From NCBI GenBank assembly GCA_903876735.1, contig CAIRAW010000002.1, positions 52,154 through 116,153 of the forward strand: a stretch of DNA of 64,000 nucleotides, read 5' to 3'. Under the pieces are notes generated by a model that worked only from the letters and a program-made list of their open reading frames with translations, searched no databases and had not been told where the DNA came from. This document shows, piece after piece, positions 17,652-33,386 of the stretch; the stretch's first letter is position 1, and each line of letters starts with the position of its first letter. This stretch comes from an uncultured beta proteobacterium. Its GTDB lineage: Bacteria > Pseudomonadota > Gammaproteobacteria > Burkholderiales > Burkholderiaceae_C. The position numbers were made by a program, and so were the translations under genes.

Positions 17652-17665
17652 TGGAATGAATTCCA
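17652..17665. promoter_or_regulatory. Candidate activator (UAS) site, TGGAAT-GA-ATTCCA
   Basis: Perfect 6+6 inverted repeat ~120 bp upstream of the -24 element at 17786; extra half site ATTCCA at 17680-17685. Confidence 0.4.
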
Positions 17666-17785
17666 TAGTCATGGCGCTCATTCCATGGTTTGCTTTCCCT
17701 ATCTCACGCCTCCCGGTGACTTTGGGGTCGGACAGCCACACCACGATTTCCCGCCACGGCGAGCTTTGTTTCAAATTGTTATCCG

Positions 17786-17801
17786 TGGCATAGCTATTGC
17801 T
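17786..17801 (+). promoter_or_regulatory. Sigma54 (-24/-12) promoter upstream of gvp regulatory operon
   Basis: TGGCATAGCTATTGCT: GG and GC with canonical spacing, TTGCT -12 box. Confidence 0.75.
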
Positions 17802-17870
17802 TTGTTCAGCATGACGCGTGACAAAACAAGGGTTGCAAGCTCCTTTGCCCGCTACGGACCCGACTGACCC

Positions 17871-18473
17871 ATGCGCACGCTCATCAAAATCCCCATCATC
17901 CATACCGAACAGGACATGGGCTCCCTGCGCGACCAGACCCGACAGGAGTATCTGGTCCGCTATGGCCAGGAAAAATGGCTTGAACACCTCAAGTCAATTG
18001 ATGGAATCTGGCTCGGCATCCGCCAGGCCATCAGCCTGCTGGAGCTGCCCCGCACCTCGGTTCGTTTGTACCAGGACGGCTTGCCGGTTTGCGGCAAGGA
18101 AGCCGACATCGTGCGCGACGTCGCCGCACAAGGCAGCCGCAACCACGCCCTGCTGTTGGAACTGATGACGCTGGGCGCAAACCTGATGGGCACGGAAGAC
18201 CCGAAGTTGCTGCTGCAGGAGTATCAACTCCATCAACTCGCCGCCGGCGCAGCGAAACCCGCGAACGACCCGGCACGCCTGGCGCAAAGTCAGGAACTGC
18301 TGCTGCAGCGTGACCACTTCATTGCGCAACGCATCAACAGCACGCTGCTGACGGGCGAGATCGGCCTGCTGTTCCTGGGCCTGGCCCACTCGGTGGAAGC
18401 ACAGCTCAGCGCGGATATTCTGGTTAGAAATCTGCTCCCCTCACTCACAGAACACACAGGAAAGCCGGAATGA
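17871..18473 (+). CDS. Uncharacterised protein, first gene of gvp regulatory operon
   Basis: 200 aa, MRTLIKIPIIHTEQDMGSLRDQTRQEYL...; 4-nt overlap with downstream sigma54 activator. Confidence 0.75.
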   Translation: MRTLIKIPIIHTEQDMGSLRDQTRQEYLVRYGQEKWLEHLKSIDGIWLGIRQAISLLELPRTSVRLYQDGLPVCGKEADIVRDVAAQGSRNHALLLELMTLGANLMGTEDPKLLLQEYQLHQLAAGAAKPANDPARLAQSQELLLQRDHFIAQRINSTLLTGEIGLLFLGLAHSVEAQLSADILVRNLLPSLTEHTGKPE

Positions 18474-20035
18474 ACAAGGACCTGTCTGAGCTTGAAACGC
18501 TGGCGAGCAACACCAGCCTGGACATCACCCCCACCCCAGCGGTCAAGGTCTTGATCGTGGACGACCAGGAGGACGCGCGCTGGATACTGACCAACGTGAT
18601 GCGACAGGCCGGCTTTGTGCCGATACCGGCGGCCAACGGCGAAGATGCGCTGATCAGCATCCAGCGCCATGCGCCGGCCGTGGTGCTGCTCGACATCGGC
18701 CTGCCCGACATGGATGGCTTCGAAGTGCTGACACGCATCAAGCTGATCGACAAGTCGATTCCCGTCATCATGGTCACCGGCAACGGCAAACCCTACGATG
18801 CCGCGCGCGCGGTTCGCGCCGGTGCCTGGGACTACATCACCAAACCGTTCAAGAACAAGGATGTGCTCAACACCGTGCGCGGTGCGCTGGCGGAAAAGGC
18901 CGAAAAATCGCAGGTCCGGCGCATTCTCGACACCCAGCGCCAAGCCGATTCCCTGCTGCACTCCATGGGCACCAGCGCCAGCATCAAGGGTATACAGCGC
19001 GAGGTGGAACTGGTGGCGCGAACCACCTTCTCGATCCTGGTGACGGGTGAATCGGGTTCCGGCAAGGAGTTGGTATCGCAGGCCATCCACGCCCTGAGTC
19101 TGCGCTCCGACAAGCCGCTGGTGGCGGTGGATTGCGGCGCCATCGCCGAGTCGCTGATCGAGAGTGAACTGTTCGGGCATGAAAAGGGCTCCTTCACCGG
19201 CGCCCATCAGGCAAAGGTTGGCGCCTTCGAACTGGCCGACGGCGGCACCATCTTCCTCGATGAAATTGGCAACCTGCCACTGACGATGCAGGGCAAACTG
19301 CTCAGAGTGCTGGAGACGCGGCGCGTTCACCGCATCGGCAGCACGCGCGAGAAGAAGGTCGACTTCCGCGTCGTGGCGGCCACCAACGCCAACCTGCTGT
19401 CCATGGTGGAGCGGCGCGAGTTCCGTGAGGACCTGTACCACCGCCTGGCCGAATACTCGATCCGCATCCCACCCTTGCGCGAGCGCAAGGAAGACCTGGT
19501 TTTCCTGACGCAGCGCTTCCTGGCCCAGACCAACACTGAACTGGGCAAGCAGGTCAAAGGCCTGTCCACCACCGCCTGGGGCATTGTTCAACGCTATGAC
19601 TGGCACGGCAACGCGCGTGAGTTGCGCAACCACCTGCGCCGGGCGGTGCTGCTATGCGATCACCAGGATGGCCTGATCCTGCCCGAATTGCTGGGCATGC
19701 TCGACCAGCGGGTCCAGCCCGTTGCGCCCCAGTTGGCACCGACTATTGCCAGGTCTGTGCTGCCGCAAAGCGATGAGACGCAGGCCTGCCCGATTTGTGA
19801 CGCGTCGAACTTGCCCGATGAGGGGCCCGAACTTTCGCTCAAGGAACTCGTCGGACGTGCCACCGCACAAGTGGAACGCGCCATCCTGCTGCGGGTATTG
19901 GCCAAAAGCAAGGGCAACAAGGCGCAGGCGGCACGCATCTTGCGGATTGATTACAAGACGATGCACACCAAACTCAAGGTGTACGAGATTTCAGCAACGC
20001 AATTCATGAAGGATGCCTACAAACCCGAAGGCTGA
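18470..20035 (+). CDS. NtrC-family sigma54-dependent response regulator (gas-vesicle regulator, GvrA-like by context)
   Basis: Receiver (VLLDIGLPDMDG), AAA+ (GESGSGKELV, GSFTGA, FLDEIGNLP), Fis-type HTH (KAQAARILRIDYKTMHTKL). Confidence 0.95.
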   Translation: MNKDLSELETLASNTSLDITPTPAVKVLIVDDQEDARWILTNVMRQAGFVPIPAANGEDALISIQRHAPAVVLLDIGLPDMDGFEVLTRIKLIDKSIPVIMVTGNGKPYDAARAVRAGAWDYITKPFKNKDVLNTVRGALAEKAEKSQVRRILDTQRQADSLLHSMGTSASIKGIQREVELVARTTFSILVTGESGSGKELVSQAIHALSLRSDKPLVAVDCGAIAESLIESELFGHEKGSFTGAHQAKVGAFELADGGTIFLDEIGNLPLTMQGKLLRVLETRRVHRIGSTREKKVDFRVVAATNANLLSMVERREFREDLYHRLAEYSIRIPPLRERKEDLVFLTQRFLAQTNTELGKQVKGLSTTAWGIVQRYDWHGNARELRNHLRRAVLLCDHQDGLILPELLGMLDQRVQPVAPQLAPTIARSVLPQSDETQACPICDASNLPDEGPELSLKELVGRATAQVERAILLRVLAKSKGNKAQAARILRIDYKTMHTKLKVYEISATQFMKDAYKPEG

Positions 20036-20084
20036 ATCCGGCCGCTGCATCATTTTTCATTGAAACCAAACAGGAGTCAGGGCC

Positions 20085-32119: not shown

Positions 32120-32429
32120 ATTTGAACTGGACAACAACGAGACTGCAGCGGCAATCCCTGCAGCCGCCACGGCAGCGCCTGCCATCAAGCGCGCGGCCGG
32201 CCCCAGCATGCTGGAGCGGCTGTTTGCCATGGCGCAGCGCTACCGCAAGGACGGCAATTACCGCCAGGCCACCGAGATGTACTGGACCATGGTGACCGAG
32301 CATGCCGATACGCCGCAGGCCGAGCAAGCCAAGGAAGAACTGCTGACAATGGCCGAGGGCTATGAACGTGCCGGCAACCAGCACATGGCGCGCGCCATGT
32401 ACGAGCGCCTGATGGACCTGGAAGACTGA
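32109..32429 (+). CDS. Small TPR-like protein of gas vesicle cluster
   Basis: 106 aa; LFAMAQRYRKDGNYRQATEMYWTMVTEHADTPQAEQAKEELLTMAEGYERAGNQHMARAMYERLM; start overlaps end of ArsA-like gene. Confidence 0.8.
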   Translation: MTNEFELDNNETAAAIPAAATAAPAIKRAAGPSMLERLFAMAQRYRKDGNYRQATEMYWTMVTEHADTPQAEQAKEELLTMAEGYERAGNQHMARAMYERLMDLED

Positions 32430-32452
32430 AGCAAGACAACAGGAGCTGCCAG

Positions 32453-32647
32453 ATGGCATTACCGCAAGAGAACAATGCGTCGCTGTGCGAACTGCTGGAC
32501 CGTGTCCTCAACACCGGCGTCGTGGCCATGGGCGAAATCGTGATTTCGGTCGCAGGCATCGACCTGATCTACCTCAACCTCAACCTGCTGCTGACCTCGG
32601 TCGAAACCGCCGTGGTGCAAAGCCGCCTGATGCAGGAACTCAAATGA
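32453..32647 (+). CDS. GvpA/J/M/S-family gas vesicle protein (GvpS-like)
   Basis: 64 aa SLCELLDRVLNTGVVAMGEIVISVAGIDLIYLNLNLLLTSVET. Confidence 0.9.
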   Translation: MALPQENNASLCELLDRVLNTGVVAMGEIVISVAGIDLIYLNLNLLLTSVETAVVQSRLMQELK

Positions 32648-32970
32648 ACTCAGCGCAGTCCTTTCTCTTTCCCGACGAGAACCGCAAGGCGGATGCGCAG
32701 GGTCTGCAGCCCCGCATCGCCCTGGACCCCGAGACCGTCAAGAACGGCCTGGGTCAACTGGTGCTGACGGTGGTGGAACTGGTGCGGCAATTGCTTGAGA
32801 AACAGGCGATCCGGCGCATCGAAGGCGGCTCGCTGAGCGAAGACGAAGTGGAACGCCTGGGGCTGACATTCTTCGAGCTGGACAAGCAGATGGAACGGCT
32901 GAAAAAGGAATTCGGCTTAACCGACAAGGACCTGAACCTTGATCTGGGACCGCTCGGCAAGTTGCTGTGA
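32644..32970 (+). CDS. gvpK: Gas vesicle protein GvpK
   Basis: IALDPETVKNGLGQLVLTVVELVRQLLEKQAIRRIEGGSLSEDEVERLGLTFFELDKQM; start set at ATG 32644. Confidence 0.95.
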   Translation: MNSAQSFLFPDENRKADAQGLQPRIALDPETVKNGLGQLVLTVVELVRQLLEKQAIRRIEGGSLSEDEVERLGLTFFELDKQMERLKKEFGLTDKDLNLDLGPLGKLL

Positions 32971-33005
32971 TGACAGCAAGCCAATGAATTAACTGGACAC
33001 ACAAA

Positions 33006-33386
33006 ATGAACACGCCTCTCGTCACCCCCGCGCCCACCAAACAAAGAGGTATCACGCACGGCACCAGCTCCTCGACCCTGGCCGACGTGCTGGAACGCAT
33101 TCTCGACAAGGGTCTGGTGATCGCTGGCGACATCAAGGTCAAGATTGCCGACGTCGAACTGCTCACCATTCAGATCCGCTTGCTGATCTGTTCCGTGGAC
33201 AAAGCACGCGAGATGGGCATCGACTGGTGGACCACCAGTCCCTACCTCAACCCCAAGCTGGCGCCGGCCACCGTGCAGACCGAGGAGATCAATGCGCGCA
33301 TCGCACGCCTGGAGGCGATGCAGCAGGCGCCGGTAGCACTTGAGACCCCGGCGGTGCCGGTAATGATGGAAAAACCCATGAATTAG
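33006..33386 (+). CDS. gvpJ: Gas vesicle protein GvpJ (GvpA-like with C-terminal extension)
   Basis: STLADVLERILDKGLVIAGDIKVKIADVELLTIQIRLLICSVDKAREMGIDWW. Confidence 0.93.
   Translation: MNTPLVTPAPTKQRGITHGTSSSTLADVLERILDKGLVIAGDIKVKIADVELLTIQIRLLICSVDKAREMGIDWWTTSPYLNPKLAPATVQTEEINARIARLEAMQQAPVALETPAVPVMMEKPMN

Follow-up and report, generated by a model that had tools for sequence, protein, structure and literature searches.

A gas-vesicle island in a Rhodoferax-group betaproteobacterium, with an unannotated small gene and, probably, a site bound by the regulator and a folded gvpA leader

The window analysed here is a stretch of 64,000 nucleotides, part of contig C2 (CAIRAW010000002.1) of a 3.9 Mb assembly (G000) from a Rhodoferax-group betaproteobacterium of lake origin. 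Judged from its sequence, the forward strand from 17871 to 33386 carries, with virtual certainty, a complete gas-vesicle (GV) island, and by its gene content this island is a GV cluster of a known kind. Comparison of relatives adds an unannotated, conserved small gene, a probable DNA site for the regulator and, where the gvpA message begins, what is probably a folded RNA. An initial annotation had proposed that a betaproteobacterial chromosome carries here a regulated GV island. That proposal is supported; the open reading frames (ORFs) lie where they were placed and the gene description is correct.

The island consists of 19 genes in two units, a regulatory one at 17871-25624 and a structural one at 25851-33386, and all reading frames are open. 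The gene order is Y, gvrA, H, Z, F2, gvrB, gvrC in the first unit and A1, C, N, V, small gene, F1, G, W, X, A2, K, A3 in the second. The letters denote positions relative to the Serratia sp. ATCC 39006 cluster. A family is claimed only where a hidden Markov model (HMM) supports it, and V, W, X, Y and Z are position labels given without comparison to the Serratia sequences. With the small gene counted there are 18 junctions, 9 of them overlaps of 1-11 bases and 9 gaps of 9-226 bases; the earlier statement that nearly all genes overlap was thus too strong.

The HMM search recovered the Gvp families that had been named (GvpA, F, N, K, J and G). The gene for the main shell protein, gvpA (A1), occupies 25851-26069; the Gas_vesicle model (PF00741) matches the ORF 25827-26069 (2.6e-17) and the NCBIfam GvpA model gives 135 bits (cut-off 100). 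Two genes for gvpA-like minor proteins are found downstream, A2/S at 32453-32647, where a third Gas_vesicle copy lies in frame with its match at window positions 32480-32596 (G000:C2:84633-84749), and A3/J at 33006-33386 (6e-17). The gvpN AAA+ ATPase gene (27229-28188) scores 357 bits with the NCBIfam equivalog (cut-off 267). Pfam matches identify gvpF/L copies F1 (28846-29607, GvpL_GvpF 8.7e-64) and F2 (22852-23691, 3.9e-55), gvpG (29625-30026, 8.9e-12) and gvpK (32644-32970, 9.9e-35). The presence together of GvpA, GvpN, GvpF/L, GvpG, GvpK and the GvpA-like minor proteins marks the island as a GV gene cluster. GvpA is 99-100% identical over most betaproteobacterial loci.

The regulatory unit contains gvrA (18470-20035; receiver, sigma54 activator and Fis-type helix-turn-helix, Pfam), the Hsp20-like gvpH (20085-20702, Pfam HSP20) and, at the gvpZ position, a CDC48-type double AAA+ ATPase gene (20699-22855; Pfam, NCBIfam), whose product has an N domain and two AAA+ domains and passes the TIGR01243 cut-off (875 versus 803 bits). 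It is completed by gvrB, encoding a soluble PAS-PAS histidine kinase (23688-25211; Pfam, NCBIfam), and gvrC, encoding a single-domain receiver (25211-25624; Pfam). A sigma54 activator, a PAS kinase and a receiver inside the cluster, together with a -24/-12 site preceding gvpA1, place the island with the Serratia-type, gvr-regulated clusters. In one feature the island departs from that type, which has three gvpF/L genes: the whole genome has two F/L and no third. F3 is also absent from all gvp-bearing congeners examined, each with at most two F/L.

A conserved protein, recognised by comparison with relatives, is encoded at the gvpV position (28198-28536), and the unannotated small gene follows it at 28607-28849. 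The small gene has a Shine-Dalgarno sequence, an ATG start and an ATGA overlap with gvpF, and its product is an Arg-rich protein of about 80 residues with no Pfam match. It is recognisable in about 40 other loci, in one of them weakly. Ratios of nonsynonymous to synonymous substitution (dN/dS) of 0.14-0.23 between relatives and the window indicate purifying selection. The gene is almost certainly real. That it is needed for vesicles is conceivable from these data, at somewhat less than even chance.

When the sequences preceding gvpA in 14 betaproteobacterial loci were aligned, they showed a -24/-12 site about 100 bp 5' of the ATG, located at 25750-25765 in the window (TGGCACGCGCTATGCG), and an inverted repeat farther upstream. 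About 14 bases past the -12 element the beta leaders have ACGAAG, a loop and CTTCGT; the loop contains CCCC, and a GGGG lies 19-31 bases ahead of the start codon. In the window this arrangement forms a probable H-type pseudoknot at 25778-25828, the first stem pairing 25778-25783 with 25798-25803 and the second 25790-25794 with 25824-25828. Pairing is kept despite base changes in locus L088 (GCCGGAAG/CTTCCGGT with CCCCC/GGGGG), L086 (ACCGGAA/TTCCGGT with CCCT/AGGG), L081 (GACGG/CCGTC with CCCCAG/CTGGGG) and L079 (CACCCC/GGGGTG); the divergent leaders L081, L086 and L088 are misaligned by MAFFT. The joint score of the two stems compared with shuffles gave p 0.003-0.020 in six of eight leaders, including ones with changed-sequence stems, and 0.08-0.09 in the other two. 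RNAalifold chose the second stem unaided, with little covariation. The pseudoknot is seen in the beta-like group only, and Rfam gave just two sub-threshold snoRNA matches over the island, judged to be chance. A strong hairpin (26078-26126) lies after gvpA here and in the other loci listed.

Three points weigh against the pseudoknot. Nested-model folding of the gvpA leader was no better than shuffles (z +0.87), so that the structure rests on comparison of leaders. The second stem tested alone was not significant in most leaders (p mostly 0.05-0.5), significance being reached only when both stems were scored jointly, and the first stem could be explained by a DNA operator. The conserved hairpin would then be the binding site of a repressor near +1, with no RNA structure, comparable to the direct repression of gvpA1 by SmaR in Serratia. 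The first stem is indeed an inverted repeat of 26 bp situated where transcription starts, an operator too would be expected to change symmetrically, and unremarkable nested folding is in keeping with one. An operator leaves unexplained, however, that the C-run of the loop and the downstream G-run change in concert in L079, L081, L086 and L088 while a similar distance to the ATG is kept. An H-type pseudoknot at the 5' end of the gvpA mRNA is accordingly the reading favoured here, with fair confidence, and an operator is regarded as a doubtful one.

The inverted repeat, CTATGG-N8-CCATAG, stands 100-145 bp upstream of the -24/-12 sigma54 site before both operons. Its gvpA copy (CTGTGGCGCAGATTCCCTAG, 25605-25624), which has the gvrC stop codon inside, is the top site of the genome at 23.2 bits, the next being 17.6, with a matrix made from gvpA sites that includes this one and so favours its score. 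The regulatory operon is preceded by three overlapping weaker repeats of the same type (17649-17702, 9-10 of 12 matches) and by a sigma54 site at 17786-17801 (TGGCATAGCTATTGCT, TGGCAT-N5-TTGCT), all of which recur in the congeners G029 and G007. The promoter candidate previously suggested for each half is thereby borne out and sharpened to a sigma54 site with a shared enhancer motif; the genome has a sigma54 gene. Over 33 distinct beta loci the best enhancer match averages 10.2 of 12 positions, as against 7.3 in dinucleotide shuffles. At least 10 positions match in 22 of the 33 (0.35% of shuffles) and in 14 of 35 non-beta loci (0.5% of shuffles).

The repeat is likely to be the enhancer bound by GvrA. 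Its assignment to GvrA comes from position and conservation. A point against the regulatory scheme is that in the congeners L047, L050 and G063 neither a persuasive enhancer nor a sigma54 site lies up to 700 bp from the Y gene. Recognition by another regulator would fit an assignment drawn from sequence, as well as the similar repeats that the genome has at a single RTX gene away from the island. It is nonetheless unlikely, as the repeat accompanies gvrA-bearing clusters in several phyla, spaced from the sigma54 sites as an enhancer would be, and GvrA is the sole sigma54 activator in the island. With GvrA as the binder, an enhancer and a sigma54 site before both operons imply positive autoregulation; given the three congeners just named, this would apply to the present lineage and is not general in the genus.

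At the RTX locus mentioned (L139:2413-2672, G000:C73), a large gene for an RTX surface protein, with a SapC gene adjoining, is preceded by a -24/-12-like site and three copies of a GvrA-like enhancer. Members of this protein family were found in 5 of 41 congeners, each of which also bears GV genes. The arrangement of enhancer and sigma54 site was found at just one copy, and a role of GvrA in driving the RTX protein remains a lead.

The island is very probably functional and controlled by sigma54, as far as sequence can tell, and would make cytoplasmic gas vesicles on demand. GvrB, a soluble PAS kinase, would sense a cytoplasmic cue and phosphorylate the receivers GvrC and GvrA. GvrA would bind CTATGG-N8-CCATAG at about 100-145 bp upstream of the two -24/-12 promoters and, with sigma54, fire both the gvpA operon and its own, giving a self-amplifying switch. 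For the hairpin or pseudoknot of the leader and the hairpin after gvpA the likeliest role would be to shield the gvpA portion of the transcript and raise its share, which is proposed because the cell needs far more GvpA than any other protein of the set. Hydrophobic GvpA monomers would be held by the Get3-like and Hsp20 proteins. Growth of the bicone into a cylinder would depend on GvpN and the gvpV-position protein, whose namesakes act in this way in Serratia (PMC4982088), and the GvpC-like protein would be an outer strengthener. It is tentatively suggested that a 5'-terminal gvpA pseudoknot acting in stability or sensing, the shared GvrA enhancer switch and a new Arg-rich Gvp protein of about 80 residues between gvpV and gvpF may make up an undescribed control layer of beta GV clusters.

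That the island is instead cryptic, looking intact and yet silent or unable to make vesicles, as has been discussed for the gvp cluster of Streptomyces coelicolor, is very improbable: the loss of F3, which is essential in Serratia, the tandem ATPase gene whose 3' end runs into a dispersed repeat and the patchy distribution of the island in the genus would suit such a state, but every frame is open, no gvp-bearing congener examined has F3, GvpA is essentially invariant, the small gene is under purifying selection and the promoter and leader elements are conserved.

The unknown ORFs of the initial annotation exist and can be resolved as a TraB/ChaN-like candidate, a GvpC-like repeat protein, the gvpV-position protein and the small gene, which it had left unnamed. 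The self-similarity of the GvpC-like protein (26216-27154) exceeds the 99% level of shuffles at offsets of 33, 40 and 73 residues, so that the 33-residue repeat is present. It is called GvpC-like because no family model of GvpC recognises it (no Pfam match at E<=1, no NCBIfam match at E<=0.01). Its basic tail ends in KKK; among homologues the tail diverges, yet most have a WP motif and end in KKK or KRK. The tail of GvpG is acidic, with 36 Asp/Glu in 61 residues, a trait common among beta clusters.

The tandem Get3/ArsA-like ATPase (30023-32119; two ArsA domains in Pfam) has a GKGGVGKT P-loop and a DTAPxGH switch in each half and passes the cut-off of TIGR00345 (Get3/ArsA/TRC40). The CxxC of Get3 is present in both halves here, and in 25 of 25 homologues for the first half and 21 of 25 for the second. 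With the arsenite-pump equivalog TIGR04291 the score is 155 bits, below the 650-bit cut-off. Because the former model is passed and the latter failed, the protein probably works like Get3, holding hydrophobic GvpA. The last approximately 37 codons of the gene (31992-32119) lie within a dispersed repeat, ATTGCGAGGAGCG occurring 12 times and CGCGGCAATCCA 23 times in the genome; the protein of the closest relative ends at 661 amino acids without this repeat. In L024 (10769-11336), a metagenome-assembled genome of Burkholderiales, no tandem ArsA-like gene is present between gvpG and the TPR gene, a natural deletion useful for judging whether the tandem gene is dispensable. The TPR-like protein of the window is encoded at 32109-32429 (Pfam/NCBIfam, relatives).

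The first protein of the regulatory operon (17871-18473, position label Y) has an invariant H11, E109 and R147 and a GxxH motif (H173). TraB matches are weak and found in 9 of 35 homologues (best 0.0023), and the best fold match, ChaN, is also weak (E 0.16); a TraB/ChaN-like nature is unproven. Within the genus the protein is found only in genomes with GvpF/L. A literature search that did not extend to subscription papers found nothing on gas vesicles with Get3, TraB or a pseudoknot, or on GvrA binding sites.

The island is flanked on the left by an RND efflux gene (14254-17520, reverse strand) and on the right by a Cache-PAS-GGDEF-EAL gene (33456-36317, forward strand). The latter starts 69 bp past the island and its closest homologues in the genus likewise follow GV islands (G029, G007 and a split match in G028); a link of cyclic di-GMP with flotation is possible. 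The RND gene has the same place in G029 and G007 and is on contigs other than the island's in several other GV-bearing congeners, so the chromosomal position of the island seems to vary among members of the genus. G012, without gvpF/L, has the RND gene and does not conserve the right flank; no clean empty site was shown. A foreign origin was considered from composition, of which there is no sign (GC 61.6% in the island, 61.4% in the genome), and plasmids yielded just distant gvpN copies of less than 60% identity. GvpF/L was found in G000, in 8 of 36 congeners first drawn and in 1 of 4 further ones; the congener contig G063:C3 carries the same cluster.

With some species carrying the island and others lacking it, the genus lends itself to studying how GVs are gained and lost in nature, and two strains of Rhodoferax antarcticus have been reported to differ in gas vesicles (PMC5374385). 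GV clusters are also sought as acoustic reporter genes, and to express them in another host one must know each of the genes and how protein amounts are controlled. In this respect three concrete parts can be put to the test: the conserved small gene that had been overlooked, the defined enhancer motif and the structured gvpA leader.

The likeness to Serratia 39006 noted at the outset is real in gene content and in the two-operon layout. There the structural operon is likewise A1-C-N-V-F1-G...A2-K...A3 and the regulatory one gvrA-H-Z-F2...gvrB-gvrC, a sigma54 site lies in the gvpA1 promoter, and gvpA1 transcription needs GvrA, GvrB and GvrC (PMC4982088). Unlike in Serratia, the regulatory operon comes first here, F3 is lacking, a TraB-like gene opens the regulatory operon and an extra small gene stands between V and F1. 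A sigma70-type promoter is reported for Serratia gvrA; here a sigma54 site and enhancer-like repeats are found before the gvrA operon. The reversed operon order is published for Psychromonas ingrahamii and Desulfomonile tiedjei (PMC4982088). ArsA homologues with two ArsA domains are known from gvp rather than arsenic operons (clusters 4 and 6, PMC2963123), as here; the Get3-like CxxC in both halves is noted in the present work. With GvpC proteins built of 33-residue repeats the GvpC-like protein shares the post-gvpA position and that repeat; it differs in also having 40-residue units and a basic tail that carries a WP motif and ends in KKK, and in matching no existing family model. Synteny with other clusters is close: genes and order are essentially identical (L014-L047, L175) in Rhodoferax-group relatives, other Burkholderiales, Geobacteraceae (L029) and Acidobacteriota (L028, L031, L034, L038), and Desulfomonilaceae (L035) have the same set with the regulators partly moved. 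Several non-beta clusters differ from the present one in having one more F/L, and in these neither a GvpC-like nor a TPR gene was recognised. The genes for CDC48, ArsA, the kinase, the receiver, Hsp20 and the TraB-like protein, earlier counted among several non-canonical components, are thus standard for this class of cluster, as relatives and, for ArsA, published work (PMC2963123) show. The island is assigned to a known kind because relatives have the same genes in the same order and because the layout, the need for GvrABC, the sigma54 site, the reversed order and the gvp-linked ArsA have all been published.

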